NCBI GenBank assembly: GCA_905181615.1
Contig: CAJIYH010000004.1
Location: 124,001 to 188,000, forward strand
DNA from: an uncultured Flavobacteriaceae bacterium
Lineage (GTDB): Bacteria; Bacteroidota; Bacteroidia; Flavobacteriales; Flavobacteriaceae
Reading direction: 5' to 3'
Length of the DNA: 64,000 nucleotides
The notes below the pieces were generated by a model. That model saw nothing but the letters and a program-made list of their open reading frames with translations, ran no database searches and was not told the DNA's origin. The position numbers were made by a program, and so were the translations under genes. Positions 8,185 through 23,527 of the stretch are shown one piece after another (position 1 is the first letter of the stretch; the number at the start of each line of letters is the position of its first letter).

Positions 8185-9195
8185 TTATATTTTAGCAGAT
8201 TTAACTGTTTTGATAATACGAGCAGCAATTCTATAAGGATCACCGTTTGAAGCAGGTCTTCTGTCTTCTAACCATCCTTTCCAACCTTGCTCTACAGTAA
8301 TAATAGGAATACGAATAGAAGCTCCACGATCCGAAACTCCGTAACTAAAGTCTGTAATCGATGCAGTTTCGTGTAAACCAGTTAAACGTTGATCGTTGAA
8401 TTGTCCGTAAACCGCAATGTGTTCTTTTGTTACCGGGCGGAATGCTTCACAAATAGTATTGTAAACATTTTCATCACCACAGGTTCTTAAAGTAGTATTT
8501 GAGAAGTTAGCATGCATACCAGAACCGTTCCAGTCTCCTTTTATGGGTTTTGGGTGGTATTCGATATAGTAACCATATTGTTCTGTAAGACGGTCAAGTA
8601 AGTAACGTGCAATCCAGATTTCATCTCCAGCTATCTTAGCTCCTTTTGCAAACAACTGAAATTCCCATTGTCCACTTGCAACTTCTTGGTTGATTCCTTC
8701 AAAGTTTAGACCTGCATCGATACAAAGATCTGCATGTTCTTCAACAAAGTCTCTTCCGTGTGTATTTTTTCCACCAACAGAACAGTAATACATTCCTTGT
8801 GGTCCTGGATATCCTCCAACAGGGAAACCTAAAGGTAGTTGTGTTTGTGTATCCATGATAAAGTACTCTTGCTCGAACCCGAACCAAAAGTCATTATCAT
8901 CATCATTAATTGTTGCTCGTGCATTGGATTCGTGTGCCGAACCATCTGCATTTAAAACCTCCGTCATTACTAAAAATCCATTTTTGCGAACAGGGTCAGG
9001 ATAAATAGCAACAGGCTTAAGTAAGCAGTCAGAAGAACCTCCTTCAGCTTGTTTTGTTGAAGAACCATCGAACGACCAAACAGGACACTCTTCTAATGTT
9101 CCATTAAAATTTTCAATTACCTTTGTTTTACTACGTAAATTGGAAGTTGGTTTGTAACCATCTAACCAGATATACTCTAATTTAGATTTGCTCAT
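8185..9195 (-). CDS. glnII: glutamine synthetase type II
   Basis: The product forms glutamine from glutamate, ammonia and ATP. The start is at 9195 (MSKSKLEYIWLDG), giving 336 residues, typical for the eukaryote-like GSII; the longer frame adds a leader not found in the family. Motifs in order are WSFDGSSTKQAEG (about 40-52), the ATP/glutamate region FGFEQEY, GDWNGSGMHANFS, and DRGASIRIP. The gene is divergent from glnN with 211 bp between starts. Two AACC-N11-GGGGT sites lie in that gap, one directly upstream of a TAAATTTG box for this gene. Confidence 0.95.
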   Translation of the reverse strand: MSKSKLEYIWLDGYKPTSNLRSKTKVIENFNGTLEECPVWSFDGSSTKQAEGGSSDCLLKPVAIYPDPVRKNGFLVMTEVLNADGSAHESNARATINDDDNDFWFGFEQEYFIMDTQTQLPLGFPVGGYPGPQGMYYCSVGGKNTHGRDFVEEHADLCIDAGLNFEGINQEVASGQWEFQLFAKGAKIAGDEIWIARYLLDRLTEQYGYYIEYHPKPIKGDWNGSGMHANFSNTTLRTCGDENVYNTICEAFRPVTKEHIAVYGQFNDQRLTGLHETASITDFSYGVSDRGASIRIPIITVEQGWKGWLEDRRPASNGDPYRIAARIIKTVKSAKI

Positions 9196-9219
9196 AATAT
9201 TTTTTTTAGCTTTATATAA

Positions 9220-9227
9220 CAAATTTA
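9220..9227 (-). promoter_or_regulatory. glnII -7 box TAAATTTG
   Basis: This TAnnTTTG match on the minus strand lies 24 bp before the glnII ATG. The half-site GGTTG (9241-9245) lies 13 bp upstream of it. The P-II promoter has almost the same layout. Confidence 0.55.
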
Positions 9228-9241
9228 ATTTTTTTGGATAC

Positions 9242-9261
9242 AACCTCGATTTTTATGGGGT
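9242..9261. promoter_or_regulatory. candidate nitrogen-control operator, site 1
   Basis: AACC at 9242-9245, eleven bases, then GGGGT at 9257-9261. It lies just upstream of the glnII -7 box. The same pattern recurs at 9296-9315 and in front of the P-II gene. Confidence 0.5.
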
Positions 9262-9295
9262 CTAAATCTTAACAGAGTTATTAACTTTTATTGAT

Positions 9296-9315
9296 AACCC
9301 ATTTTTATAAGGGGT
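9296..9315. promoter_or_regulatory. candidate nitrogen-control operator, site 2
   Basis: AACC at 9296-9299, eleven bases, then GGGGT at 9311-9315, followed by AAAT as in the P-II site. It lies 54 bp from site 1, about five helical turns, in the same orientation. Confidence 0.5.
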
Positions 9316-9371
9316 AAATTTAATTTTATGCAAAAAAATCAATGAAAAGACTGCAGATTTTAAAAATTAGA

Positions 9372-9379
9372 TAACTTTG
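9372..9379 (+). promoter_or_regulatory. glnN -7 box TAACTTTG
   Basis: This TAnnTTTG match lies 27 bp before the glnN ATG. No clear TTG is seen at the usual upstream distance, which would fit an activator-dependent promoter. Confidence 0.5.
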
Positions 9380-9406
9380 CTATAGAATTTTTAAACACCT
9401 TATGCC

Positions 9407-11593
9407 ATGAATTCTCTCCGATTTGAAGCTTTGAATAGCCTAGCAAAAAATAACAGACCAAGTACTTTCCAAGAATATAGTTCCGAAAATCATTATGCTC
9501 AGAATGTATTTAATGATATGGCACTTCAAAAGTCTTTAAATAAAGAAGCTTATGATGAAATTTCGAAAGTAATTTTTAAGGGTTCTAAAATATCAAAATC
9601 ACTAGCTGATCAAATTGCAGCAGCAATGAAATCATGGGCGCGTTCAAAAGGAACAACTCATTATACCCACTGGTTTCAGCCACTTACAGGGGCAACTGCC
9701 GAAAAGCACGAATCTTTTTTTGATTTATCAAGTGATTATCTAGCAATAGAGCGCTTCGATGGAAGTCAATTGGTACAACAAGATCCTGATGCCTCAAGCT
9801 TTCCAAGTGGTGGAATCAGAAACACTTTTGAGGCCAGAGGATATACTGCCTGGGACCCAACATCTCCAGCATTTATTTATGGAAAAACACTTTGTATCCC
9901 AACCATTTTTGTTTCCTATACTGGCGATGCACTAGACTATAAAACACCTCTATTACGATCTTTATCTGAATTGGATAAAGCCGCAACCGATATTGCAAAG
10001 TACTTTGATAAAAATACCCAAAAAGTTTACGCAACCTTAGGGTGGGAGCAAGAGTATTTTTTGGTCGATAGGAGCTTGGCTGCTTCTCGTCCCGATTTGA
10101 ACCTTACAGGCAGATCTTTAATGGGTCATGAGTCGTCAAAAGGGCAACAGTTAAATGACCATTACTTTGGATCTATCCCTAGACGAGTTTTAGCTTTTAT
10201 GCAAGAATTAGAGCACCAAAGTTTACTTTTAGGAATTCCGCTAAAAACAAGGCACAATGAAGTGGCACCTGGTCAGTTTGAATTAGCTCCAATTTTTGAA
10301 GAGGCAAATCTGTCTGTGGATCACAATGCTTTGCTTTTGGATGTTATAAATAAGATCGCAGAGAAGCATAATTTTATGGTACTCTTGCACGAAAAGCCTT
10401 TTAAGGGAATTAATGGCTCTGGAAAACACAACAATTGGTCTTTAAAAACCAATACGGGAATTAACTTGTTAAGTCCTGGAAAAACACCCATGAACAACCT
10501 GCAGTTTTTGACCTTTTTCATCAATACCATCGCTGCTGTTTTGAATCATGAATCTCTGTTACGAGCAAGTATTGTTTCGGCAAGTAATGAACTTAGATTA
10601 GGAACTGATGAAGCACCTCTTCCTATTATCTCTGTTTTTATAGGTGAGCAGCTGACCGAAGTTCTTAATAATCTGGAACAAGTTTCCGAAGGAAAATTAT
10701 CTCCAAAAGAAAAAACAGATCTTAAGCTTAATGTTATTGGTAAGATTCCAGAAATATTATTAGACAACACAGATCAAAATAGAACTTCTCCTTTTGCCTT
10801 TACTGGAAATAAATTTGAGTTTCGAGCGGTTGGATCCAAAACCAACTGTGCAAAACCCATAACCGTATTAAATTCGATTGTTGCAGAACAGTTAATTATT
10901 TTTAAAGGAAAGGTAGATGGGCGACTCGAAAACCCAAAAATGAAAAAGGATGATGCTATATTTAATGAATTAAGAGATTCAATAAAGCATATTCGAACCA
11001 TACTTTTTGAAGGAGATGGATATAGTGAGGCTTGGATTAAAAGCGCTAAAAAGAGAGGCTTAAGTCCTATGACATCAACTCCAGAAGCTATTAAAGCTTA
11101 TGTTTCTCCTAAAAGTATAACCCTATTCAAAACGTTAAAAGTATTTACCGAACGTGAGCTCGAATCTCGTGTTCAAGTAGACTTGCAACAATACACCCAC
11201 ACGCTGCAAATTGAGGGAAGAACTCTAGGCGACATTGCTCGAAATCATATCATCCCAACTGCAATTCAATATCAAAATACCTTAATAGATAATGTTAAAG
11301 GTTTAAAAGAAATTTATGGAAAAGGGTTTGAAGTTCATGCTAAAGAACAAATGTTATTAATAGAGCGTATTTCAGGACATATTTCTCAGATTAACTCGGG
11401 GGTAAATGCTATGATTTCTGAACGAAAGAATGCAAATTTGCTCGAAGATGATTATTTAAAAGCGACCACTTATTATGTTCAAGTAAAACCATACTTTGAC
11501 ACCATACGTTACCATTGTGATAAACTAGAATTATTGGTAGACAACTCCATATGGCCGCTTGCTAAATACCGAGAATTGCTCTTTTCTCGATAG
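9407..11593 (+). CDS. glnN: glutamine synthetase type III
   Basis: The 728-residue length is diagnostic for GSIII, found mainly in Bacteroidota and cyanobacteria. The N-terminal family region is followed by the catalytic core with GWEQEYFLVDR (about residues 215-225), KTRHNEVAPGQFELAP (about 281-296), GSGKHNNWS (about 344-352) and NRTSPFAFTGNKFEFR (about 457-472). It makes the same reaction as GSII with a dodecameric enzyme of different fold detail. Having both types back to back suggests that they are used under different nitrogen conditions. Confidence 0.96.
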   Translation: MNSLRFEALNSLAKNNRPSTFQEYSSENHYAQNVFNDMALQKSLNKEAYDEISKVIFKGSKISKSLADQIAAAMKSWARSKGTTHYTHWFQPLTGATAEKHESFFDLSSDYLAIERFDGSQLVQQDPDASSFPSGGIRNTFEARGYTAWDPTSPAFIYGKTLCIPTIFVSYTGDALDYKTPLLRSLSELDKAATDIAKYFDKNTQKVYATLGWEQEYFLVDRSLAASRPDLNLTGRSLMGHESSKGQQLNDHYFGSIPRRVLAFMQELEHQSLLLGIPLKTRHNEVAPGQFELAPIFEEANLSVDHNALLLDVINKIAEKHNFMVLLHEKPFKGINGSGKHNNWSLKTNTGINLLSPGKTPMNNLQFLTFFINTIAAVLNHESLLRASIVSASNELRLGTDEAPLPIISVFIGEQLTEVLNNLEQVSEGKLSPKEKTDLKLNVIGKIPEILLDNTDQNRTSPFAFTGNKFEFRAVGSKTNCAKPITVLNSIVAEQLIIFKGKVDGRLENPKMKKDDAIFNELRDSIKHIRTILFEGDGYSEAWIKSAKKRGLSPMTSTPEAIKAYVSPKSITLFKTLKVFTERELESRVQVDLQQYTHTLQIEGRTLGDIARNHIIPTAIQYQNTLIDNVKGLKEIYGKGFEVHAKEQMLLIERISGHISQINSGVNAMISERKNANLLEDDYLKATTYYVQVKPYFDTIRYHCDKLELLVDNSIWPLAKYRELLFSR

Positions 11594-11639
11594 CGTTTAT
11601 CGTTTAGAATTGATATATTTACTATATATATTATAATCT

Positions 11640-12488
11640 ATGAAAAATTCGAATGTAAAAGCTGGATTAAGATACTTGCTTTGTATCCAGTTTATTGTTT
11701 TTTTTGGTTGTGGAGGTGGAGGCGACGATGATATTCAAATTGTTAATACTCCAGAAGTAGTTGTTCCTGTAATTACAGCATCAAACTTATCTTCATCAAT
11801 TAACGAAAATCCAGAAGTAGGTTCTGCAATAGGAACTGTACAGGCCTCAGTCACATCGGGAAGTCTGCAGTATAGTTTAGTCTCCCAAAGTGTTAGTGGT
11901 GCATTAACAGTAAATGCGTCTACCGGTGAAGTTACTGTTGCAGATGCCAGTCTCTTTGACTTTGAAACTCTTCAGACTTTAACAGCTGTTATCCGTATTT
12001 CTTCTGGAAGTGTTTTTGAGAACATAAACGTTACAGTTTCAATTACAGATATTGATGAGATTGAAGCAGTTTATACCATTTGGGAAGGTACAACCATGAC
12101 CTTTACTAAAGAGGATGGTGGTGACCCAACAAGTTCTTCTCAACAAGATCATATTACCGATAATGTTAAAATTACACGAGGTAACAGCGGAGGTCAGATT
12201 TATAATATTGTTAACGAGTCTGTAGCTGTCAAAGAGACAAGTCCTGCGGGTACAGAATGGGCGCTTGGCACAATCGATCAAATTGCTGATTTAACTTTTG
12301 AGCCTTTTAGAGCAGCAACAAACGGTAAACCTAAAAATCAGCTTGGTAAAGACATGGTTCTGCATTTAATTACAGATGATATTTATATTTCTATACGATT
12401 TACATCTTGGAGTACAGGACAGGCTGGAGGATTTATATATGAGCGATCAACTACTAATGTTGGATCTTCTAAAAAACAGCCAAAGTAG
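11640..12488 (+). CDS. cadherin-repeat lipoprotein, unknown function
   Basis: The chain of 282 residues starts with a signal sequence ending in FFGCGGGGDDD, a lipobox with the glycine/aspartate sorting region typical of surface lipoproteins in this phylum. Residues about 45-140 form a cadherin-like domain (INENPEVGSAIGTV, SGALTVNASTGEV, FDFETLQTL). The C-terminal 130 residues (TIWEGTTMTFTKEDGGDP onward) are a beta-rich module I cannot name; similar tails occur in surface proteins. An 8-bp hairpin without a T run follows the stop. Confidence 0.75.
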   Translation: MKNSNVKAGLRYLLCIQFIVFFGCGGGGDDDIQIVNTPEVVVPVITASNLSSSINENPEVGSAIGTVQASVTSGSLQYSLVSQSVSGALTVNASTGEVTVADASLFDFETLQTLTAVIRISSGSVFENINVTVSITDIDEIEAVYTIWEGTTMTFTKEDGGDPTSSSQQDHITDNVKITRGNSGGQIYNIVNESVAVKETSPAGTEWALGTIDQIADLTFEPFRAATNGKPKNQLGKDMVLHLITDDIYISIRFTSWSTGQAGGFIYERSTTNVGSSKKQPK

Positions 12489-12508
12489 TTTTAGAGATTC
12501 CTCTAAAA
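12489..12508 (+). terminator. hairpin after the cadherin lipoprotein gene
   Basis: TTTTAGAG and CTCTAAAA form a perfect 8-bp stem around ATTC, overlapping the end of the stop codon. There is no T tract, so it may act as an mRNA 3' stabiliser or a weak terminator. Confidence 0.5.
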
Positions 12509-12563
12509 TTGATATAGTTAAAGGAAATAAATTGATGTATTTTTGTGTTAAATTATAACCAGT

Positions 12564-13742
12564 ATGAGTGAGTTGTCTAGTGATCGTTATCGTTTTCGCG
12601 GTGTTTCTGCACAAAAAGAAGATGTTCATAATGCTATTAAAAACATAAATAAAGGACTTTTCCCTAAGGCCTTTTGTAAAATAGTTCCCGATCATTTAAC
12701 AGGTAGCGAAGAACATTGTCTGGTAATGCATGCCGATGGTGCCGGTACAAAAACTTCTTTAGCCTATGCTTATTGGAAAGAAACTGGAGACTTGTCAGTA
12801 TGGAAAGGCGTGGCTCAAGATGCTTTGATTATGAATATAGATGACCTATTATGTGTGGGTGTATCTCAAGATATTTTGCTTTCTTCTACCATTGGCAGGA
12901 ATAAAAACAGAATTCCTGGTGAGGTTTTAGCAGCAATAATAAACGGTACAGAAGAAATAATTGAAGAGCTTAAAGGTTACGGAGTATCGATTCATAGTAC
13001 TGGAGGAGAAACTGCAGATGTTGGAGATTTAGTTCAAACTATAATCGTAGATTCTACAGTAACCGCAAGAATGAAACGTTCTGATGTTATTGATAACGCC
13101 AATATTCGACCCGGAGATGTTATTGTGGGATTAGCTTCTTTTGGTCAGGCTTCTTACGAAAAGGAATATAACGGTGGAATGGGAAGTAATGGACTTACTT
13201 CTGCTAGACACGATGTTTTTAATAAAAACCTCAAATCTAAATATCCTGAAACTTTTGATGCTAGCATGCCAGAGGATTTAATTTACTGCGGTTCTAAGAA
13301 CTTAACAGACGCTATTGAGGGTAGTCCAATAAATGCAGGTAAATTAGTATTGTCTCCTACTAGAACATACGCTCCGATTATTCAGGAAATAATGAATACA
13401 GTCGATAGGTCAATGCTTCATGGTATGGTTCATTGTAGTGGAGGAGCACAAACTAAAATTTTGCATTTTATAGATTCATTACATGTTATTAAAGATAATT
13501 TATTTGCACTACCTCCTTTGTTTAAGATGATACAAGAAGAATCTAAAACTTCTTGGAAAGAAATGTATGAAGTTTTTAACATGGGACATAGAATGGAACT
13601 TTATGTTGCTCCTGAACTTGCTAAACAAATCATTTCAATTTCAGAATCGTTTAGTGTACCAGCTCAAATTATTGGAAGAGTAGAAGCCTCTGATAAAAAA
13701 GAATTAACAATTAAAAGCACTCAAGGAACTTTTACTTATTAA
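12564..13742 (+). CDS. purM: phosphoribosylformylglycinamidine cyclo-ligase (AIR synthase)
   Basis: The product closes the imidazole ring in purine synthesis (FGAM + ATP to AIR). The N-terminus GVSAQKEDVHNAI, the block HADGAGTKTSLAY and the central MNIDDLLCVG are typical of the PurM/PurL ATP-grasp-like fold. GGETADVGD corresponds to the second conserved aspartate region. At 392 residues it matches the longer form usual in Bacteroidota rather than the 345-residue E. coli enzyme. It is not next to other purine genes. TATTTTTG at 12538-12545 is a plausible -7 box. Confidence 0.92.
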   Translation: MSELSSDRYRFRGVSAQKEDVHNAIKNINKGLFPKAFCKIVPDHLTGSEEHCLVMHADGAGTKTSLAYAYWKETGDLSVWKGVAQDALIMNIDDLLCVGVSQDILLSSTIGRNKNRIPGEVLAAIINGTEEIIEELKGYGVSIHSTGGETADVGDLVQTIIVDSTVTARMKRSDVIDNANIRPGDVIVGLASFGQASYEKEYNGGMGSNGLTSARHDVFNKNLKSKYPETFDASMPEDLIYCGSKNLTDAIEGSPINAGKLVLSPTRTYAPIIQEIMNTVDRSMLHGMVHCSGGAQTKILHFIDSLHVIKDNLFALPPLFKMIQEESKTSWKEMYEVFNMGHRMELYVAPELAKQIISISESFSVPAQIIGRVEASDKKELTIKSTQGTFTY

Positions 13743-13766
13743 AAAACTTTAAACCACATATTTTTA

Positions 13767-14207
13767 ATGAATAGATTTATTTTTCTCTCGATATTTACTT
13801 TATGTTCATTAAGTTCAACCGTTCTTTCTGCTCAAAATTGGCAAACAGATTGGGAGAAAACAAAACTTGAATCAAAACAAACGAATAAAAAAATCGTATT
13901 AGTTTTTTCAGGTTCAGACTGGTGTATTCCTTGTATCAAACTTGAAAAAGAAATCTGGATAACCCCAGAATTCATATCCTATGCGAGTGAAAATTATTTG
14001 CTCTTTAGAGCCGATTTTCCCAAAAGAAAAAAGAATAAATTACCTGATCAAATTCAAGAACGCAATGATTTACTAGCTAGCAAATACAATCCTAAAGGTT
14101 ACTTCCCACTGGTTGTTATCTTAAACTCCAACCACGAGGTTATTGGTAATCTAGGTTACGATAACCTTCCTGTAAAAAATTATATTGAAAAAATAGAACG
14201 ATTTTAA
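13767..14207 (+). CDS. periplasmic thioredoxin-like protein
   Basis: The 146-residue product begins with a Sec signal peptide (MNRFIFLSIFTLCSLSSTVLS...). It has a thioredoxin fold of the DsbD-gamma/thioredoxin_7 type with redox motif DWCIPC (about residues 51-56) and the cis-proline region GYFPLVV (about 111-117). It probably reduces or forms disulfides in the periplasm. The stop is one base from the start of apbE, and DUF4266 and DUF3570 genes follow, so the four genes form one operon. Cys-rich DUF4266 is a natural candidate client. Confidence 0.85.
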   Translation: MNRFIFLSIFTLCSLSSTVLSAQNWQTDWEKTKLESKQTNKKIVLVFSGSDWCIPCIKLEKEIWITPEFISYASENYLLFRADFPKRKKNKLPDQIQERNDLLASKYNPKGYFPLVVILNSNHEVIGNLGYDNLPVKNYIEKIERF

Positions 14208-14208
14208 A

Positions 14209-15192
14209 ATGAAAAACATACTAGTCTTAATGAGTTTGTTTTTGTCTAATTTCATTTTAAGTGCACAAAAATCATATTCAGAATCTAGTATTTTAATGGG
14301 GTCATCTTTTGAGATCACCGTTGTTGCCTTGGATGAAGATTTCGCAAAGGAGTCCCTAGCTATTGCAAAGAAAGAAATTATTCGTATTGAAAACTTGATT
14401 TCCTCTTGGGACCAAAAGTCTGAGACTTCAAGAATAAACAAAAATGCAGGGATTGGTGCTGTTGAGGTTTCAAAAGAACTTTTTGATTTAATTTTTCGAG
14501 CGCAACAGATTTCTAAATTGTCATCTGGAGCATTCGATTTAACGTTTGCAGCTGTCGATAAACTATGGAATTTTGACGGAAGGGAATCAGAAATGCCAAA
14601 TCCAGATGCTCTTAAGGCCTCTGTTTTTAATATTGGATACCAGCTAATTGAACTTAACGAACAATCTTTGACTGTTTTTCTCCCTAAAAAAGGGATGAAA
14701 ATAGGGTTTGGAGCTATAGGTAAAGGGTATGCTGCCGACAGTGCTAAGCAGCTGCTTGTTGAGCGGGGAGTTTTAGGTGGTATAATTAACGCGTCTGGAG
14801 ATATGAATACTTGGGGAACTAAACCCGATGGATCTTCTTGGACTATAGGAATAGTAAACCCAATGAATAACAAGAAAGTATTTTCTTGGTTTTCTTTAGA
14901 ACACAACGCCGTTGTTACTTCTGGTGATTACGAAAAATTCACCCAGATTAATGGAAGGCGTTACAGTCATATAATCGATCCAAGAACTGGGATTCCATCA
15001 CAAGGAATCGTAAGTTGTACTATATTTGCTGGTAAAGCAGAATTAGCAGATGCAATTGCTACTGCTATATTTGTAATGGGGGTTGAATCTGGACTATTTT
15101 TAATAGATCAGTTGCCCGACATAGAGGCTATTTTAATTGATGACTCAGGAATAATTCATTGCTCTAAAAATATTGAAATTGAAGAAAATTAA
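14209..15192 (+). CDS. apbE: FAD:protein FMN transferase
   Basis: The enzyme attaches FMN from FAD to a Ser/Thr of target proteins outside the cytoplasm. A signal peptide (LMSLFLSNFILSAQ) precedes the ApbE core: ILMGSSFEITV near the N-terminus, ISSWDQKSETSRIN, then GFGAIGKGYAAD (about 165-176), INASGDMNTWG, and RYSHIIDPRTG (about 255-265). Length (327) is typical. The gene overlaps the next one by 20 bp and follows the thioredoxin gene by one base. No Rnf/Nqr target is present in the window, so its client is probably within its operon. Confidence 0.93.
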   Translation: MKNILVLMSLFLSNFILSAQKSYSESSILMGSSFEITVVALDEDFAKESLAIAKKEIIRIENLISSWDQKSETSRINKNAGIGAVEVSKELFDLIFRAQQISKLSSGAFDLTFAAVDKLWNFDGRESEMPNPDALKASVFNIGYQLIELNEQSLTVFLPKKGMKIGFGAIGKGYAADSAKQLLVERGVLGGIINASGDMNTWGTKPDGSSWTIGIVNPMNNKKVFSWFSLEHNAVVTSGDYEKFTQINGRRYSHIIDPRTGIPSQGIVSCTIFAGKAELADAIATAIFVMGVESGLFLIDQLPDIEAILIDDSGIIHCSKNIEIEEN

Positions 15193-15397
15193 ATTTTTAT
15201 TAATCTTTATGGTTGTTCTTGTATCAGTTACAAGTTGTGTATCTGTAAAAGAGTACAATAGAGTTTATTTAAACGATGCTGATATGGCACTCAAAGCAGG
15301 TTTGTGTGAACGTTTTGAAACTACATATCATATTTATAGAGAAGCAGCTGCAGGTGCTAATGGAGGAAAAACAGGTGGAGGTTGTGGTTGTAATTAA
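15173..15397 (+). CDS. DUF4266 lipoprotein, small, Gly/Cys-rich tail
   Basis: The 74-residue protein has a signal sequence with lipobox VTSC (Cys at residue 22), then the family core EYNRVYLNDADMAL, and ends in a flexible tail GGKTGGGCGCN. The mature part has four cysteines: the lipidated one, one in AGLCERF, and two in the tail. The DUF4266 function is not known. The gene starts inside apbE, and the DUF3570 gene starts inside this one, so translation of the three is probably coupled. The tail could bind a metal or be a thiol client of the upstream thioredoxin; this is inference. Confidence 0.88.
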   Translation: MKLKKIKFLLIFMVVLVSVTSCVSVKEYNRVYLNDADMALKAGLCERFETTYHIYREAAAGANGGKTGGGCGCN

Positions 15398-16838
15398 AAA
15401 AATAACATTGATTCTTTTAATGAGTTTTGGATTTGTTTCCTTTGCTCAAAAAGATACTCTAAAGTCTTATAAGAAGAAAGTGTTAGAAACTGTAGAAGTA
15501 GATATGCTTCTTGGTTTTTATACACAAAAAGGCATCCATGCTTCAGTTACTGGTGGTATTGGAAATGAAGATTTACAAAATATAGCTCCAACTGTTGTAA
15601 TTAAAATACCATTAAACGAAGATGATGTTCTAACAGCAGACTTTGGTTTTTCTTCATACACCTCAGCGAGTTCAAGTAATGGAAATCCGTTTAATACTGG
15701 AGCTTCTACTGGGGAAGATCGCGAATATAGTGGTGGCGATGGAAGTGGAAGTGGCGGTCAAGGACCAAAAGGTTCTCCTTGGGTTGCTTCTTCAGGTGCC
15801 TCTAGAAAAGATGTGCTAACTGCTTTGAGCCTATCCTATGTTCATGCCACAGACGACAGAAACAGATATTGGTCCTCTAATATTGGTTCTTCTTATGAGT
15901 ACGACTACCAGTCTTTTGGTTTTGGGGGAGGCGTAACTCAGTTATGGAATGAAAAAAATACAGAACTTAATATAAAAGCTCAAGTATACTTAGATCAATG
16001 GATTCCAATAATTCCAACTGAAATAGATGAATACGAGCAATTCGGTTCAGATTTTTTAATTGATACTCAAAGTTATTTTTCAGGGGTAAGTGTCCTAAAT
16101 TCAAACGGGGCTAGTGTAGCAGAGTACCTTCCGTCAAAATTCACTCCTATAAACAATGTGAATAGAAATTCCTATTCCTTTTCTCTAGGGTTTTCTCAAA
16201 TATTAACCCCTAGAATGCAATTTTCTATAGCTCTTGATTTAGTAAAGCAAGAAGGTTGGCTAGCAAATCCTCTACAGCGGGTTTACTTTTCAGATAAATC
16301 AAATTATTATGTGGGGAATGCAAACAATATTTCTAATTATGAAAATCCTTCCAATACAGATGTCTTTCATCTAGCAGATGACATTGAGCGTCTTCCGAGT
16401 ACTCGTCTGAAGTACCCGCTAGGTATGCGATTAAATTACTATGTTAATGAATATTTAGTTATACGTTCTTATTTTAGGAAATATCTTGATGATTGGGGTG
16501 TAGATTCTAATACGTTTCAGGTAGAACTTCCTGTTAAATTTAATATGAGTTGGAGGATAATACCAAGCTTTAGATACTTTGATCAAACCGCTGCAGATTA
16601 TTTTGCACCATATAATCAGCATCTGTCTACTCAAGATTATTATACTTCGGATTATGATCTTTCTGCATTTTCGAGTTATCAAGTAGGAGGTGAGTTTGTT
16701 TTTACAGATGTCTTGTCTAATTATGGCGTATGGAAATTATCTTTAAAGAGAATTGGTTTACGTGTTCAGAATTATCAGAGATCAGATGGCCTTTCTGCGT
16801 TTAGTATCTCAACTAATTTCAGTTTTGTTTTAGATTAA
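15384..16838 (+). CDS. DUF3570 outer-membrane beta-barrel protein
   Basis: I choose GTG at 15384 because it gives a compact signal peptide (VVVIKKITLILLMSFGFVSFAQ region). ATG at 15360 would add eight residues, and frames starting at 15276 are unlikely. The mature chain of about 465 residues shows alternating amphipathic strands and ends in an aromatic-rich beta pattern closing on FVLD, as in outer-membrane barrels. Residues about 105-145 are a Gly/Ser-rich segment with SGASRKD (15792-15812), which resembles the SGAT-type motif flavinylated by ApbE. The start overlaps the end of the DUF4266 gene. Confidence 0.85.
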   Translation: MVVIKKITLILLMSFGFVSFAQKDTLKSYKKKVLETVEVDMLLGFYTQKGIHASVTGGIGNEDLQNIAPTVVIKIPLNEDDVLTADFGFSSYTSASSSNGNPFNTGASTGEDREYSGGDGSGSGGQGPKGSPWVASSGASRKDVLTALSLSYVHATDDRNRYWSSNIGSSYEYDYQSFGFGGGVTQLWNEKNTELNIKAQVYLDQWIPIIPTEIDEYEQFGSDFLIDTQSYFSGVSVLNSNGASVAEYLPSKFTPINNVNRNSYSFSLGFSQILTPRMQFSIALDLVKQEGWLANPLQRVYFSDKSNYYVGNANNISNYENPSNTDVFHLADDIERLPSTRLKYPLGMRLNYYVNEYLVIRSYFRKYLDDWGVDSNTFQVELPVKFNMSWRIIPSFRYFDQTAADYFAPYNQHLSTQDYYTSDYDLSAFSSYQVGGEFVFTDVLSNYGVWKLSLKRIGLRVQNYQRSDGLSAFSISTNFSFVLD

Positions 16839-16865
16839 TTAAGTTCATGTTTCCTTAAAAAGTAG

Positions 16866-16873
16866 TAATTTTG
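16866..16873 (+). promoter_or_regulatory. prfA -7 box TAATTTTG
   Basis: This TAnnTTTG match lies 19 bp before the prfA ATG. No good -33 TTG is visible. Confidence 0.45.
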
Positions 16874-16892
16874 CCACATAGATTACCAAGTT

Positions 16893-17969
16893 ATGATCGA
16901 AAAACTACAAATAATTCAGCAACGCTTTGATGAAGTCTCAGACTTGATTATACAACCGGACATTATATCGGATCAGAAGCGTTATATTCAGTTGAATAAA
17001 GAGTACAAAGACTTGAGGATTTTGACTGAAAAGGGTTATCAATACAAGGCTTTATTAGCAAATATTAGTGAAGCCGAAGAAATTATCAACGACACTTCAG
17101 ATCCTGAAATGGTTGAGATGGCTAAAATGCAGTTGGAGGAAGCAAAAGAACTTGTTCCTGAATTAGAAGAGGATATTAAATTCCTTTTAATTCCAAAAGA
17201 CCCTGAAGATTCTAAAAATATTGTTGTAGAAATTCGCGCCGGTACCGGTGGTGATGAAGCCAGTATTTTTGCAGGAGATTTATATCGTATGTACTCAAAA
17301 TTTTGTCAAGACAAAGGATGGAGTGTGAGTCTGGTTGATAGTAGTGAGGGAACTGCTGGTGGCTTTAAAGAGGTTATTTTTGAAGCTTCTGGAGAAGATT
17401 GTTACGGTGTTATGAAGTTTGAGTCTGGTGTTCACCGAGTTCAACGTGTTCCTCAAACAGAAACCCAAGGAAGGGTTCATACTTCTGCTGCAACCGTTAT
17501 GGTTTTGCCTGAAGCAGAAGAGTTTGACGTTGAGGTTAATATGAGTGATATACGTATAGATTATTTTTGTTCATCAGGACCTGGAGGGCAGTCGGTAAAT
17601 ACAACCTATTCTGCAGTTCGTTTAACGCATGAGCCAACCGGAATTGTTGCGCAATGTCAAGATCAAAAATCACAGCATAAGAATAAAGACAAAGCACTGA
17701 AAGTTCTTCGTTCTCGGTTATACGAAATGGAACTGGCTAAGAAACTAGAAGCAGATTCTCAAAAGAGAAATTCTTTAGTTTCTTCTGGAGATCGTTCTGC
17801 AAAAATAAGAACCTACAATTACCCACAGGGTAGAGTAACCGATCACCGAATTGGATTAACGTTATATGATCTTCAAAACATCATCAATGGAGATGTTCAA
17901 AAATTAATAGACGAATTGCAGTTATATCATAACACCGAAAAGCTTAAAGAGGCAGGAGAAGTATTTTAA
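16893..17969 (+). CDS. prfA: peptide chain release factor 1
   Basis: RF1 recognises UAA and UAG and triggers peptide release. The 358 residues match the family length. The catalytic GGQ loop is in [12 protein letters not shown] (about residues 228-239), preceded by the domain-2 region [12 protein letters not shown] (about 113-124) and [12 protein letters not shown]. The C-terminus [14 protein letters not shown] is also standard. pyrF follows after 3 bp, so the two are cotranscribed. Confidence 0.96.
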
Positions 17970-17972
17970 TTT

Positions 17973-18800
17973 ATGAGAATCGAAGCGTTAAAAAAGCAAA
18001 TCCTAGCTAAGAAGTCATTCTTATGTGTTGGTCTTGATGTTGATCTAGAAAAGGTTCCAGAACATATCAAGGCAATGGAAGATCCATTGTATGAATTTTC
18101 TAAAGCCATTATAGATTCTACTGCTGCTTATGCCGTTGCTTACAAACCTAACATTGCTTTTTTTGAAACATATGGGCCAGAAGGAATGGCTTCTTTAAAA
18201 CGAGTGATGGGTTATCTTAATAACAAACATCCAGAAATTTTCACTATTGCTGATGCAAAAAGAGGAGATATAGGTAATACTGCAACACGCTATGCTAAAG
18301 CTTACTTCAAAACTTATAATTTTGATTCCATTACTGTTGCCCCGTATATGGGTAAAGATTCAGTTGAGCCGTTTTTAAGTTTCGACGAAAAATACGCTAT
18401 ACTTCTTGCTCTTACATCAAACGGGGGATCGTCTGATTTTCAAACGCAAGAGGTTGGAGGACAAATGCTTTATGAAAAGGTAATCCAGACCAGTATTGAA
18501 TGGGAAGGTTCTGAACGTCTAATGTATGTAGTTGGAGCAACTAAAGCAAATGCATTGAGAAAAATACGAGAATTAATTCCGAATTCTTTTTTGTTGATTC
18601 CAGGGGTTGGAGCGCAAGGTGGTAGTTTGACAGAAGTTGCGGAAAATGGACTTTCGAGCGATGTAGGTATTTTGGTTAATTCTTCTAGAGGCATTATTTA
18701 TGCATCAACAGACGAGAATTTTGCTCGGGAGGCTAAAAAAGCGGCACGAGAATTGCAGTCACAAATGGAAAGTATCCTCAAAAATAAAAATTACATATAA
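17973..18800 (+). CDS. pyrF: orotidine 5'-phosphate decarboxylase
   Basis: The enzyme decarboxylates OMP to UMP, the last step of pyrimidine synthesis. LCVGLDVD at the N-terminus, the catalytic block DAKRGDIGNTA (about residues 90-100), TVAPYMGKD and the phosphate-binding LIPGVGAQGG place it in the longer type 2 group of about 275 residues. The stop codon overlaps the ATG of the next gene (TAATG). pyrD is also in this window, at 61805. Confidence 0.96.
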   Translation: MRIEALKKQILAKKSFLCVGLDVDLEKVPEHIKAMEDPLYEFSKAIIDSTAAYAVAYKPNIAFFETYGPEGMASLKRVMGYLNNKHPEIFTIADAKRGDIGNTATRYAKAYFKTYNFDSITVAPYMGKDSVEPFLSFDEKYAILLALTSNGGSSDFQTQEVGGQMLYEKVIQTSIEWEGSERLMYVVGATKANALRKIRELIPNSFLLIPGVGAQGGSLTEVAENGLSSDVGILVNSSRGIIYASTDENFAREAKKAARELQSQMESILKNKNYI

Positions 18801-19585
18801 TGTTGAACTATACTTTGTATGAGAATGATAAAAGCGCACCATGGGTAACTTTTGTTCATGGAGCTGGTGGAAGTTCATCCGTTTGGTTTAAGCAAATCCG
18901 AAGCTTTTCAAAAATATTCAACCTGCTACTTGTTGATCTTCGCGGACACGGCTCTTCAAGCGTAAAATTAATTTTACCGTCAAAAGATGCTTACACTTTC
19001 GATGCTATTGCTAAAGATATCATTGAGATATTAGATCATGAAAAAATTGATAAATCTCACTTTATAGGGATTTCTTTGGGCACAATTTTAATTCGCCAAA
19101 TTGCCGAAATGCAGCCCAAAAGAGTTTTGAGTATGACTTTAGGAGGTGCAATTTTGAAATTTAATTTTCGTTCCAGAATTCTTATTTTTGTCGGAAATTT
19201 AACAAAATCAATAATCCCATATATGTGGATTTATAAAGTATTTGCTTTTATTATTATGCCTCATCGTAACCATAGAGATTCTAGAATTATGTTTATTCGT
19301 GAGGCTAAGAAATTATATCAAAAGGAATTTGTCAGGTGGTTTAAGCTTACTGTTGAATTGGTTCCCTTACTCAAGATCTTTAGGCAAGAAGAGGTTAAAA
19401 TCCCAACCCTTTATGTTATGGGTTCTGAAGATTATATGTTCTTACCTTCTGTGAGGAATGTAGTTGGTGAGCATTTATCTTCCCAGTTGCAGGTAATTCA
19501 TAAATGTGGTCATGTTGTAAATATTGAACAACCAGAAAAGTTCAACAACATGACAATTGATTTTATAAAAAAACTTAAGTTTTAA
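18800..19585 (+). CDS. alpha/beta hydrolase, unknown substrate
   Basis: The 261 residues form a standard alpha/beta hydrolase: oxyanion region VHGAGGSS (about 19-26), LLVDLRGHGSS, nucleophile elbow FIGISLGT (about 92-99), late acid MGSEDYMFLP and catalytic His in IHKCGHVVNIEQPE. It has no signal peptide and a hydrophobic lid region. The start overlaps the pyrF stop, so it is the third gene of the prfA operon. It overlaps the end of convergent purU by four bases. The function cannot be inferred from the neighbours. Confidence 0.85.
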   Translation: MLNYTLYENDKSAPWVTFVHGAGGSSSVWFKQIRSFSKIFNLLLVDLRGHGSSSVKLILPSKDAYTFDAIAKDIIEILDHEKIDKSHFIGISLGTILIRQIAEMQPKRVLSMTLGGAILKFNFRSRILIFVGNLTKSIIPYMWIYKVFAFIIMPHRNHRDSRIMFIREAKKLYQKEFVRWFKLTVELVPLLKIFRQEEVKIPTLYVMGSEDYMFLPSVRNVVGEHLSSQLQVIHKCGHVVNIEQPEKFNNMTIDFIKKLKF

Positions 19586-20436
19586 GAAAACACAATAGTT
19601 TTATTCTTGTAAACCATTACTTTTCTGGCAACATGGAGTTGCAATGCCTTAGATAAAACAATTCGTTCCAAATCCCTTCCTTTAGCAATAAAATCATCAA
19701 TAGAATTTAGGTGAGAAACGTGGGTAGTGTTTTGTTCTATAATGGGTCCAGCATCGAGTTCTTTAGTCACGTAATGACTGGTTGCTCCAATAATTTTCAC
19801 GCCTCTCTCATATGCAGAATGATAGGGTTTTGCTCCTGGAAATGCAGGCAAGAATGAATGGTGAATGTTAATGATTTTATCCTTGAAATGCTCAATTAAC
19901 TTTCCTGAAATTATTTGCATATAGCGTGCAAGAACAATAAAATCTACTCCATGCTCTTGAAGTATTTGGAGCTGTTTTTCTTCTGCTTTTTTCTTATTTT
20001 CATTGGTTATAGGTATGTGATAAAAAGGAATTTCAAAGCGCTCAGCAATACTTTTTAAATCTAAATGATTACTTAGTATAAAAGGAATATGGACAGCCAA
20101 TTCACCAGATTGGTGACGGGCTAATATATCGTATAAACAGTGATCGTATTTAGAAACAAATAACGCCATTTTCGGAAATTCATCATTTAGGTAAATCTCT
20201 ACCTTTAGTTGAAATTGAGTTCCAATAGTGCGTTCAAAAGTTGACTTAAAATGTTCTATACTCTGACTGTCTTCAGAAATTTCACATTCAACCCGCATAA
20301 AGAAAATAGAATTTACTCGATCTACATATTGGTCTATGTAAACAATATTGCCATTGTTGTTGTGAATGAAGTTTGTGACTTCAGCAATTATTCCCTTTTG
20401 ATCAGGACAGTTCATGACTAAGGTAATTCTTTTCAT
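19582..20436 (-). CDS. purU: formyltetrahydrofolate deformylase
   Basis: The enzyme hydrolyses 10-formyl-THF to formate and THF, balancing one-carbon pools. An N-terminal ACT domain (CPDQKGIIAEVTNFI, about residues 9-23) is followed by a formyltransferase fold with INIHHSFLPAFPGAKPYH (about 222-239) and the conserved aspartate in ELDAGPI. Length 284 is typical. The start at 20436 directly precedes RITLVMNCPD. Confidence 0.94.
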   Translation of the reverse strand: MKRITLVMNCPDQKGIIAEVTNFIHNNNGNIVYIDQYVDRVNSIFFMRVECEISEDSQSIEHFKSTFERTIGTQFQLKVEIYLNDEFPKMALFVSKYDHCLYDILARHQSGELAVHIPFILSNHLDLKSIAERFEIPFYHIPITNENKKKAEEKQLQILQEHGVDFIVLARYMQIISGKLIEHFKDKIINIHHSFLPAFPGAKPYHSAYERGVKIIGATSHYVTKELDAGPIIEQNTTHVSHLNSIDDFIAKGRDLERIVLSKALQLHVARKVMVYKNKTIVFS

Positions 20437-20498
20437 TTCTATGCTTGATTTGGTTAAATATATTATTTAATAACGCTTTATATTTTTTTTTAGTGTAA

Positions 20499-20536
20499 AA
20501 AAACCCCTGAAAGCTTACCAAGACCTTCAGGGGGAA
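20499..20536 (-). terminator. terminator of the P-II/amt/porin operon
   Basis: On the minus strand CCCCTGAA and TTTCAGGGG form a stem around GGTCTTGGTAAGC and run into seven T. Confidence 0.85.
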
Positions 20537-20558
20537 ACCAAACAATTATATTTTTTAT

Positions 20559-21605
20559 TTAGAATGAATATATAGCAGCTACTACAAACGATGCTAAATT
20601 GTCTGAAAAGTCAGTTGCATTTTTAGAGTAGATATTTGCAGAAGCAGTATCGATTCTAAATTCTGGCTTTAAGATAAAATTCCCGTTGGTGTAACTTCCT
20701 GTTATAGTAAAAGAGGTATTGTCTGCGTCTTCAAAACTAGTGGCTAATTCACCAGAGTATAATGCTGCAGCTCCACCATCAGTTTCGTTAAAAATTTCTC
20801 CTCTAAGACCAACACTAAAGCTTTCCGATAAAGCTAGTTGAGGATATAAGGCTATTCCAGAGAATCCTGCATCGCCTTCAAGATCTGTTGAAGTTGCATT
20901 AACTCCTAAGAAAAAGCTATCCGTAAGATTAACACCACCTGTAAAGTCAATTTGTGTATAATTATCTCCTGCTAGAAGGTTGATGTACTGACCGTATAAA
21001 CCTAATTGTACTCCGTACATATAGCTATCAAACATTGCTCCGTCTTCACCGCCAAAGTTTCCTTCTGTGTAGTCTGTTTGGTTCAATACTGCAAGCATTA
21101 AAGAAACATCATCAGAAAGTGTAAAGTCTGCTTTTATACCTGTATGTGAGAATGGGCCGTATGAGAACATATAAGAAGTCGAGTAGTTGAAGTTAGCTAC
21201 TGGAGAAATAACCTCGTACCCAAGGAACGTATTAAAGTTTCCTAGGGTTAGGGTAAAACTATCGCTGAAGTTATAGTAAGCATACAATTGGTTGACAATA
21301 TTTGAAGAGCCTGAAGAGTTAAATACTGCTTCTGTTCCCCTAGGGCCGTATACAAAGTCTGCTACAAATCCATGTTTGTCACCTTCGTAAGAAAGTACAA
21401 TATTTGCCATTCCTAGTGCAAAACCAGGAAGATTAGCGAATGAAGTATAAGGTGCAAACTCTGCACTTCTAAAGTAGGTGTCTACAGACCCACTTACACT
21501 AAAAGTTGGAGCTGCTTCTTCTGTTGTTTCTTCTGTTTCTTGAGCAAATGAAACTGCTGATGCAAGAAATACTATTGATAAAATTGTTTTTTTGAAAATT
21601 TTCAT
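20559..21605 (-). CDS. outer-membrane porin of the ammonium operon
   Basis: The 348-residue product has a signal peptide (FKKTILSIVFLASAVSFAQ), a short acidic spacer rich in Glu/Thr, and alternating strands ending in VVAAIYSF, the C-terminal aromatic signature of outer-membrane barrels. Family members are annotated as putative porins. It is the last gene of the operon P-II, ammonium transporter, porin, 32 bp after the transporter. It may therefore admit nitrogenous solutes or ammonium across the outer membrane; this role is inferred from context only. Confidence 0.8.
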   Translation of the reverse strand: MKIFKKTILSIVFLASAVSFAQETEETTEEAAPTFSVSGSVDTYFRSAEFAPYTSFANLPGFALGMANIVLSYEGDKHGFVADFVYGPRGTEAVFNSSGSSNIVNQLYAYYNFSDSFTLTLGNFNTFLGYEVISPVANFNYSTSYMFSYGPFSHTGIKADFTLSDDVSLMLAVLNQTDYTEGNFGGEDGAMFDSYMYGVQLGLYGQYINLLAGDNYTQIDFTGGVNLTDSFFLGVNATSTDLEGDAGFSGIALYPQLALSESFSVGLRGEIFNETDGGAAALYSGELATSFEDADNTSFTITGSYTNGNFILKPEFRIDTASANIYSKNATDFSDNLASFVVAAIYSF

Positions 21606-21637
21606 AATGTAATTAATTTAATTATTGTTTTTATTTG

Positions 21638-22885
21638 TTAATGTTGATTTAGTCTAAAGTCTGGGTAAGCATCCATACCGTGTTCAGCTAAATCCAACCC
21701 TTTAAGTTCTTCTTCCTTTTTCACTCTAATACTTCCGCCTGAAATTAATTTCACTAGATAGAGAATTGCAAAGCTGCAGACTACACAGAAAGCTCCAACG
21801 ATCCCCACTCCAGCTAATTGAATTAAGAATTGTTCTAAACTTGCCATCGCTCCAAAGATTCCTACTGCAAGTGTTCCCCATATTCCACAGATTAAGTGAA
21901 CAGCAACTGCTCCAACAGGATCATCAAGTTTTAATTTATCTATTAAAGAAACTCCTAGGACAATAATTACTCCAGCAATTGCTCCAATTAAAATAGCATC
22001 CATTGGTCCCATTTGGTCAGCTCCAGCTGTAATACCAACTAAACCACCTAGCACACCATTCATAAACATAGTAAGGTCAAAGTTTTTGTATAGAATATTA
22101 GAAAAGATAGCAGAGGCTATACCACCAGCTGCTGCTGCTAAACAGGTTGTTACTAAAGTTAAAGAAGTTAGCGCGGGATCTGCAGACAATACAGACCCAC
22201 CATTAAATCCAAACCATCCTAACCAAAGGATCAATACACCAGCTGCTGCTAATGGTAAATTATGACCTGGAATTGCTCTAGAAGTTCCATCTGAATCAAA
22301 TTTACCAATACGTGCTCCTAGTAAATAGATTGAAATTAAAGCGGCCCATCCACCAACAGAGTGAACTAAAGTTGAACCAGCGAAGTCATAGAATCCCATT
22401 GAATCAAGAAATCCACCACCCCATTTCCAAGAACCTACAATAGGATAAACCAATCCTAAGTATATAATAGCGAAAATCATAAAGCTTCTAAGCTTCATAC
22501 GTTCTGCTACTGCTCCAGAAACTATAGTTGCTGCTGTTGCTGCAAACATTCCTTGGAATAAAAAGTCGGTCCACCAAGTGTAACCGCCATCTGCATAAGC
22601 AGTGGTCATTCCGTTTTCAGGAGCTGCGATACCCCATCCTGCAAACTTAAAGATGCCCATGGCGCCTTCCTCAAATCCAGGATACATAAGGTTAAATCCT
22701 CCTAATGCATAAAGTAGAAGCCCTACAGTTATTACAAAGAAGTTTTTGAATAATATATTGATCGTATTTTTTTGTCTAGTAAGGCCAATTTCTAAAAATG
22801 AAAATCCTAAGTGCATAAAAAAGACTAATGCTGTACAGATCATCATCCATAGATTGTTTGCTGTAAAAATTGCTGTTGATTCCAT
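21638..22885 (-). CDS. amt: ammonium transporter
   Basis: Amt proteins conduct ammonium across the inner membrane as trimers. The 415 residues have 11 expected helices, with FQGMFAATAATIVSGAVAER (about 110-129), the twin-His helices VHSVGGWAAL (first pore His, about 175) and VHLICGIWGT (second, about 330), and GWFGFNGGS. It starts with a helix and no signal peptide. The P-II gene is directly upstream in the same operon, matching the conserved Amt-GlnK pairing in which P-II plugs the pore. Confidence 0.96.
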   Translation of the reverse strand: MESTAIFTANNLWMMICTALVFFMHLGFSFLEIGLTRQKNTINILFKNFFVITVGLLLYALGGFNLMYPGFEEGAMGIFKFAGWGIAAPENGMTTAYADGGYTWWTDFLFQGMFAATAATIVSGAVAERMKLRSFMIFAIIYLGLVYPIVGSWKWGGGFLDSMGFYDFAGSTLVHSVGGWAALISIYLLGARIGKFDSDGTSRAIPGHNLPLAAAGVLILWLGWFGFNGGSVLSADPALTSLTLVTTCLAAAAGGIASAIFSNILYKNFDLTMFMNGVLGGLVGITAGADQMGPMDAILIGAIAGVIIVLGVSLIDKLKLDDPVGAVAVHLICGIWGTLAVGIFGAMASLEQFLIQLAGVGIVGAFCVVCSFAILYLVKLISGGSIRVKKEEELKGLDLAEHGMDAYPDFRLNQH

Positions 22886-22910
22886 AATAAATTATAGTTA
22901 TTTGTTTTTT

Positions 22911-23249
22911 TTAGTTAAGTGTTTCTCCTCCAGTTTCTCCTGTGCGAATTCTAATTGCTTCGTCTATTGTTGAAATAAAGATTTTTCCATCTCCAACTGC
23001 CCCTGTTCCTGCGGAACTTGAAATTGCTTCAAGAGTTCTTTCGAGAAATTGGTCATTAACAACTATCGAGAGGTATCTTCTCTGTATGTCTGAGGTGCTA
23101 TAGGATATCCCTCTATAAACATGTCCCTCTTTTTCATTTCCAACACCAGTAACGTCCCAGTAACTGAAAAAGTTAACCTCTACTTTATGAAGCGCATCTC
23201 TTACTTCTTCAAATTTTGATTTGCGAATAATCGCATCTACTTTTTTCAT
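22911..23249 (-). CDS. glnB: P-II nitrogen regulatory protein
   Basis: The 112-residue trimeric sensor of 2-oxoglutarate, ATP and ADP begins KKVDAIIRKSKFEEV. The T-loop segment VYRGISYSTSDI keeps the tyrosine used for uridylylation in other phyla, although the loop is diverged. The B-loop region is SSAGTGAVGDGKIFI. Linkage to amt argues for a GlnK-type role in transporter gating. Its promoter region carries two copies of the paired motif also found in front of glnII. Confidence 0.95.
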   Translation of the reverse strand: MKKVDAIIRKSKFEEVRDALHKVEVNFFSYWDVTGVGNEKEGHVYRGISYSTSDIQRRYLSIVVNDQFLERTLEAISSSAGTGAVGDGKIFISTIDEAIRIRTGETGGETLN

Positions 23250-23276
23250 ATTATTATTGTTTTAAATGATTTTGGA

Positions 23277-23284
23277 CAAATATA
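23277..23284 (-). promoter_or_regulatory. P-II operon -7 box TATATTTG
   Basis: This TAnnTTTG match on the minus strand lies 27 bp before the ATG. The motif GGTTG (23299-23303) is 14 bp upstream, the same arrangement as in glnII. Confidence 0.55.
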
Positions 23285-23299
23285 ATATTGGGTTCACAC

Positions 23300-23319
23300 A
23301 ACCATAAAATTTTTAGGGT
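23300..23319. promoter_or_regulatory. candidate nitrogen-control operator, site 3 (P-II proximal)
   Basis: AACC at 23300-23303, eleven AT-rich bases, then AGGGT at 23315-23319 followed by AAAT. It overlaps the expected -33 region of the P-II operon. Confidence 0.5.
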
Positions 23320-23404
23320 AAATATTTATATTTTTATATTATTTACAATAATTACCCCCAAAAATTAAGAGTATTAAAAAATAAAGTATATAATATTATT
23401 AAGT

Positions 23405-23424
23405 ACCCCTATTTTTTTAGGGGT
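23405..23424. promoter_or_regulatory. candidate nitrogen-control operator, site 4 (P-II distal)
   Basis: ACCC at 23405-23408, eleven bases, then GGGGT at 23420-23424; read as ACCCC-N10-GGGGT it is a perfect palindrome. It lies 105 bp from the proximal site, about ten helical turns. It could instead be a terminator hairpin downstream of crcB, since T residues fill the loop. Confidence 0.4.
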
Positions 23425-23527
23425 GTCCGAGAAGATATTTTATTTTATACTGGTTTCGGGTACAGTAAATCAATTACATATGATATTATGCTGATTATCA
23501 AGATATTAATTTTTTTATAATTAATTT

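Follow-up and report, generated by a model that had tools for sequence, protein, structure and literature searches.

Two promoters of nitrogen-assimilation genes share palindromic sites in the 64,000-nucleotide stretch of DNA analysed here (the window), which comes from an uncultured member of the Flavobacteriaceae. One promoter region lies between the divergent genes glnII and glnN, and the other precedes a minus-strand operon for a P-II protein, an ammonium transporter (amt) and a porin. Comparison with relatives suggests that the sites act as operators of a single regulon for nitrogen assimilation, spread through the Flavobacteriaceae and several related families, in which dimers of a transcription factor would cooperate on the same face of the DNA to activate transcription when nitrogen is short. 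We put the probability of this reading at roughly 0.65. The genes that carry the sites are glnII/glnN, P-II-amt, a porin-P-II-amt operon divergent from gltB, and the gene for alanine dehydrogenase (ald).

The putative operators of the window, with their scores against a matrix and their ranks by score, are:

9242 to 9261 (core 9245-9259, centre 9252): glnII-proximal putative operator, weak; 12.3 bits, rank 6 in the window
9296 to 9315 (core 9298-9313, centre 9305.5): second putative operator of the glnII/glnN region, strong; 21.6 bits, rank 2
23300 to 23319 (core 23302-23318, centre 23310): P-II-proximal putative operator; 14.6 bits, rank 4
23355 to 23373 (core 23357-23371, centre 23364): middle putative operator of the P-II promoter, with one good half-site; 14.3 bits, rank 5
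23405 to 23424 (core 23407-23422, centre 23414.5): distal putative operator of the P-II promoter, a near-perfect palindrome; 26.8 bits, rank 1

For the matrix, 121 sites at nitrogen genes were taken, all from other genera and none from such a locus in the window's genus. In 20 random windows of equal dinucleotide statistics, the best scores ran from 10.6 to 19.6 bits. By score alone, the two strongest sites (23407-23422 and 9298-9313) rise above chance, and the three weaker ones do not; what supports the latter is position and conservation. The pattern CCC-NN-W6-NN-GGG occurs at exactly two places in the 64 kb, one per promoter, where 0.20 are expected and two are reached by 2 of 100 shuffles. 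A regulator common to both promoters had been proposed in the original prediction, and this proposal gains from the finding that the sites of ranks 1 and 2 fall one in each promoter; the palindrome suggests that such a regulator would be a dimer.

The original prediction had described four copies of the pattern AACC-N11-RGGGT. These are present, exactly at 9242-9261, 9296-9315 and 23300-23319 and with one mismatch at 23405-23424, but the pattern is only a local approximation of the real sites, which have CCC-N9..11-GGG as their core. With one mismatch allowed, AACC-N11-RGGGT matches 19 times in the window where 13.3 matches are expected, and 19 is reached by 11 of 100 shuffles; this is no enrichment, and therefore the case had to rest on comparison with relatives. 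The two P-II copies reported as 105 bp apart are both there, but a third, weak site (23357-23371) lies between them, 54 and 50.5 bp from its neighbours, which explains the longer distance. In the glnII/glnN region, the centre of the strong site is 53.5 bp from that of the glnII-proximal site. Exact ACCCC-N10-GGGGT is found at one place only in the window's genome, the palindrome at 23405-23424, and with two mismatches the pattern has 324 forward matches in that genome against 287 for the control. Another good match in the same genome, C2:683064, is inside coding sequence. The site of rank 3 in the window, at 20.7 bits, is a strong palindrome, AACCCTTTATGTTATGGGTT, at 19405-19424 (core 19407-19422), within a hydrolase gene (18800-19585), where a promoter role is not evident.

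In relatives, the same palindrome appears repeatedly upstream of glnN and of the P-II gene, with the consensus CCCTA-W5..7-TAGGG, often as ACCCC...GGGGT, and a core of 15-17 bp. At 76 distinct nitrogen loci, all from genera other than the window's, position counts yield CCC-N9..11-GGG with T/A beside the C, an A/T centre, and an outer A or an extra C. (Loci of identical site sequence were entered once in the position counts, as also in the counts of spacing, glnN distance and -7 boxes.) The inner gap is 10 in 58 sites, 11 in 35 and 9 in 18; gaps of 8 and 12 occur in 5 and 6 sites, respectively. Contacts at about 6-8 bp from the dyad would be common to all of these sites while the outer Cs shift, so that the variants can be read as one half-site geometry.

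The sites usually come in twos (three at P-II in the window) and recur at a constant spacing. At the same 76 loci, the centres of neighbouring sites are 51.5-54.5 bp apart in all 46 measured pairs, with a mode of 52.5 bp (23 pairs), or five helical turns; the paired search pattern admitted spacings of roughly 47-61 bp. Within the window's genus, neighbours are 50.5-54 bp apart in 9 of 14 P-II regions and in 8 of 13 glnII/glnN regions. The P-II promoter of one genus relative (G004) has a clearer three-site array, with spacings of 51 and 52 bp, and another relative (G006) has two sites 105.5 bp apart, resembling the P-II pair first reported for the window. An A/T-rich stretch, such as TATCAATATT or ATAAAAAT, recurs between paired sites (L032, L216, L222, L224, L247 and others), and could be a bend or the site of a second factor.

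The paired pattern also finds nitrogen genes without being told where they are. A gene-blind scan of 249 genomes of the family gave 425 matches (212 forward and 213 reverse) in 187 genomes, against 162 (74 and 88) in 109 genomes for a reversed control pattern; the match counts were copied by hand before being summed, and the 187 genomes equal the program tally. Among the matches listed, 90 loci were selected for reading, 30 of them picked by program as an unbiased sample and 60 picked by the authors, mostly for an A+T-rich centre. The program-picked loci include 23 that flank nitrogen genes (11 gltB/porin, 4 glnII/glnN, 4 glnN, 3 P-II and 1 alanine dehydrogenase), 6 within coding sequence and 1 in another intergenic region, in support of the nitrogen regulon that had been offered as an inference. 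Several promoter types can be found in one genome, with three, for example, in G032 (glnII/glnN, gltB/porin and ald) and two in the window.

Conservation at orthologous promoters, proposed earlier as a check, was found at glnN. With the protein rather than the motif as starting point, a site above 11 bits is present upstream of glnN in 35 of 43 genomes of relatives (26 of 30 glnN regions in a first set and 9 of 13 in a later one), against 4 of 940 shuffled regions. Among the four misses of the first set are one region with only 16 bp upstream and one with 140 bp. By the same approach, such a site was found upstream of glnN in 31 of 78 named GenBank/RefSeq loci across the Bacteroidota, against 7 of 1560 shuffles. 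Outside the window's family, groups f5, f7, f9 and f10 have the glnN site, as does one of the two f13 genomes; groups f2, f3 and f14 have none above threshold. In genomes of the order that have glnII only, the site was seen in 0 of 5. A scan of 392 genomes of the phylum gave a paired match in 85. Counted by hand, these are 25 of the 44 genomes that belong to the family and 60 of the other 348. Few of those 60 resemble the palindrome, and we take most of them for chance.

The sites are placed with regard to the promoter as well as to one another. The primary sigma factor of Bacteroides is described as having TAnnTTTG for its -7 element, and the same was confirmed for Flavobacterium johnsoniae (PMC7366714). 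The corresponding predicted boxes of the window are:

9220 to 9227, minus strand: predicted glnII -7 box TAAATTTG, 25 bp from the proximal site centre, with the same geometry in genus relatives
9372 to 9379, plus strand: predicted glnN -7 box TAACTTTG, 66.5 bp from the strong-site centre, a distance that varies among relatives
23277 to 23284, minus strand: predicted -7 box TATATTTG of the P-II/amt/porin operon, 26 bp from the proximal site centre

The original prediction had placed a constant interval between a GGTTG half-site and this box, but the constant is the distance from the site centre to the box, 26 bp at P-II and 25 bp at glnII. The distance was examined in 79 promoters, each kept for having a second site 49-56 bp away, with TAnnTTTG as the only box and at most one mismatch. 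Measured from the proximal centre to the first base of a box downstream, it is 24-27 bp in 23 of 23 porin promoters, 11 of 12 P-II, 6 of 7 glnII and 2 of 2 amt promoters, and in 2 of 4 ald, 3 of 8 glnN and 6 of 23 gltB promoters. Where glnN has no adjoining glnII, the sites are 25.5-27 bp from the glnN box in 3 of 4 loci read (L178, L198 and L200; not L191). In pairs of the two genes it is glnII that has the sites at this distance, and glnN is served from a greater one (45-102 bp beyond the site).

Several observations weigh against a regulon of this kind. The gltB and glnN boxes are mostly off the fixed distance of 24-27 bp, and the glnII sites of the window are weak. Two relatives of the first 30, with complete sequence upstream of glnN (G015 and G037), score below 11 bits there, as do the glnN regions of G049, G038, G052 and G059. 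Only 6 of 79 promoters have a TTTG where the -33 element would be expected, but this scarcity proves little and is no proof of an activator, because a -33 element is described as not identifiable globally in F. johnsoniae (PMC7366714). Comparison with background also gave a divided result, in that the paired pattern exceeds its control across the family, as given above, but the single-site pattern shows no genome-wide enrichment in five genomes of the window's genus, with 53 matches (27 forward and 26 reverse) against 59 (28 and 31) for the control, which speaks against a broad regulon. The regulon is therefore small in the window's genus, and may consist of just these two promoters.

The preferred mechanism is activation under nitrogen limitation. 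A dimeric transcription factor would bind each palindrome, and two or three neighbouring dimers on the same face of the DNA would cooperate. The proximal dimer would lie over the -33 region, at roughly -36 to -41 depending on how the start is counted, and the next near -90. From there the proximal dimer would aid RNA polymerase at a promoter that has only a -7 element, probably when nitrogen is short, and in divergent pairs one array would probably serve both genes. An activator is preferred because the P-II sites are weak proximally and strong distally, because glnN is served from a distance, and because in Prevotella ruminicola, another member of the Bacteroidota, glnN, gltBD, glnK and amtB are reported to be induced by ammonium limitation (PMC5552732). 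In addition, the sites adopt the box position for a lone glnN and for glnII when the two genes adjoin, and an activator therefore fits better than a repressor.

The same operators and regulon might instead be served by a repressor, which would cover the -33 region under nitrogen excess and bind more strongly through cooperation with the second site. There is precedent in GlnR of Bacillus, which represses under nitrogen excess, and the overlap of the proximal site with the -33 region would suit such a role. GlnR and TnrA belong to the MerR family, a small member of which is present in 23 of 23 genomes examined, 14 of them motif-bearing, and the CCCTA-N7-TAGGG core has the same layout as the TnrA/GlnR site TGTNA-N7-TNACA. 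The arrangement of the sites makes repression less likely all the same. At the P-II promoter of the window and of most genus relatives read, it is the distal site that is strong and the proximal that is weak, and in divergent pairs glnN is served from so far off (45-102 bp beyond the site) that obstruction of RNA polymerase by a bound protein is hardly to be expected.

Candidates for the regulator were judged by their presence in motif-bearing genomes. The test covered four families, Lrp, GerE, Crp and MerR. Two of the genomes are incomplete (G008 at 89% and G045 at 92%), so that absences there are weaker. A small MerR-type protein of about 110 amino acids (G000:C6:185530-185733 and orthologues), acting like TnrA or GlnR, is a doubtful candidate. 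It has in its favour the core geometry already described, and MerR is the sole family of the four that is present in all 14 motif-bearing genomes searched. The protein is also present, however, in 9 of 9 genomes without type III glutamine synthetase, most of which have the recognition-helix sequence unchanged in the small form. Because it is found in 23 of 23 genomes, with and without that enzyme, its presence is uninformative, and the candidate is neither supported nor excluded by it. Further, the 200 bp that precede its gene were recovered in 20 cases, none of which contains CCC-N9..11-GGG, and the match in G013 is split across two short frames.

A Crp/Fnr protein bound at a class II position, like NtcA in cyanobacteria, is quite improbable. 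A site near -40 with a second about 52 bp upstream is as in tandem promoters of the Crp type. In the window's genome, however, a single Crp protein, L301, exceeds the Pfam cut-off. It has no match in motif-bearing G008, G044, G045 and G057, where other Crp paralogues were not searched, and it is 50-52% identical to proteins of G046, G050 and G058, all of which lack type III glutamine synthetase. No Crp orthologue group that covers all motif-bearing genomes was seen in the search with L301, the only one made.

It is more improbable still that the regulator is an Lrp/AsnC protein, from an orthologue group near an ald promoter that carries sites. The gene is 2-3 kb from a paired-site ald promoter in three genomes (G032, G216 and G255; L365, L366 and L367), and Lrp sites likewise have a W-rich centre. 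The complete, motif-bearing genomes G025, G028 and G030, however, have no match above 44% identity to the ald-linked Lrp, and motif-bearing G042, G045 and G048 have none to that query at E <= 0.001; the search with the Pfam Lrp model was confined to ten other genomes. These absences contradict Lrp as a common regulator, unless those genomes have replaced it. The LuxR/NarL family (GerE) was rejected, with no match in motif-bearing G008 and G045; in G000, G010 and G013 there are weak matches only (best E 1.4e-5), in frames of 191, 573-577 and 934-947 amino acids. Genes beside glnN in twelve named loci (34 neighbouring proteins scanned) gave no recurrent DNA-binding family; HTH_3 and Response_reg have one member each among the 25 of 34 neighbour families listed. 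Two NUDIX proteins are found near glnN.

There is next to no chance that the palindromes are transcription terminators or RNA hairpins, given that most loci are divergent gene pairs with no place for a terminator (gltB/porin in 26 of 90, glnII/glnN in 23 of 90), that the spacing between sites and to the -7 box is fixed, and that there is no Rfam match in 9000-23700 of the window, even though the palindrome at 23405 is self-complementary and about 100 bp downstream of the crcB stop, and a similar match in the window's own genome has the form of a terminator. That match (G000:C5:27207-27227; L389 1708-1728), with the sequence ACCCCCTTTTTTCAAGGGGGT, comes after a 487-aa frame and has a T run behind it. 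It looks like an intrinsic terminator, and such elements would be a source of false matches for the motif.

The activated regulon proposed here has relatives in function among known systems of nitrogen control. NtcA of cyanobacteria governs a global nitrogen regulon that includes glutamine synthetase, P-II and amt, from a site GTA-N8-TAC near -41. The likeness extends to the gene set and to a palindrome near -41 before a -10 or -7 box. The differences are that the sites here are CCC-N9..11-GGG in pairs five turns apart, and that the distribution of L301, the one Crp protein tested, does not follow that of the motif; position counts contain no half-sites of GTA-N8-TAC or TGTGA-N6-TCACA, and have CCC/GGG instead. 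GlnR/TnrA of the Firmicutes also act on nitrogen genes through paired operators with half-sites equally far from the dyad (17-bp core), but the bases TGTNA-N7-TNACA are not matched by the position counts of the sites, and the spacing of the glnRA pair is much shorter than 52.5 bp. NtrC with sigma-54 is similar in having paired palindromes upstream of glutamine synthetase and amt genes, whereas the promoters here have the ordinary Bacteroidota -7 box TAnnTTTG, the only box searched, at a fixed distance, with the proximal site over the -33 region. Within the Bacteroidota, the shared genes glnN, gltBD, glnK and amtB are reported as co-induced in P. ruminicola 23, in passages that name no operator or regulator, from a paper whose main text does not use the word "promoter" (PMC5552732).

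The regulon described is new and belongs to a kind of system already known. In the literature searched, nothing was recognised as describing this operator or a named Bacteroidota nitrogen regulator. To our knowledge, no operator or regulator has been named for nitrogen control in the Bacteroidota. A larger claim, for which we would not quite offer even odds, is that there is a master nitrogen regulator peculiar to the Flavobacteriales and not related to NtrC, NtcA, AmtR or GlnR, which would read five-turn arrays of CCCTA-W5..7-TAGGG at 24-27 bp before the -7 box and control glnII, glnN, gltB, P-II-amt, porin and alanine dehydrogenase together. The palindrome at 23405-23424 is a defined probe for pulling out the regulator protein. 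The motif further points to target promoters across hundreds of genomes, and the promoter geometry that comes with it is open to direct testing. Given nitrogen limitation of marine flavobacteria, such a switch would be ecologically relevant.

The genes of the window at the two promoters are:

8185 to 9195, minus strand: glnII, glutamine synthetase type II (Pfam Gln-synt_N and Gln-synt_C)
9407 to 11593, plus strand: glnN, glutamine synthetase type III (Pfam GSIII_N and Gln-synt_C-ter)
20559 to 21605, minus strand: outer-membrane porin gene, BBP2 family (Pfam BBP2)
21638 to 22885, minus strand: ammonium transporter gene, amt (Pfam Ammonium_transp)
22911 to 23249, minus strand: P-II signalling protein gene (Pfam P-II)

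The glnII protein aligns over the full length of the NCBIfam GlnII model at 393.5 bits, under the cut-off of 500 bits. The P-II protein (22911-23249) scores 77.2 bits against an NCBIfam cut-off of 181 bits for classical P-II and has the loop EGHVYRGISY; judged by these features, it is an unusual P-II type. Directly upstream of P-II-amt, and in the same orientation, is a CrcB-type gene (23528-23899). Among the neighbouring genes at the 90 regulon loci, one cluster, with 15 members, consists of such CrcB-type genes upstream of P-II-amt (L196, L217, L221, L233, L243 and others).

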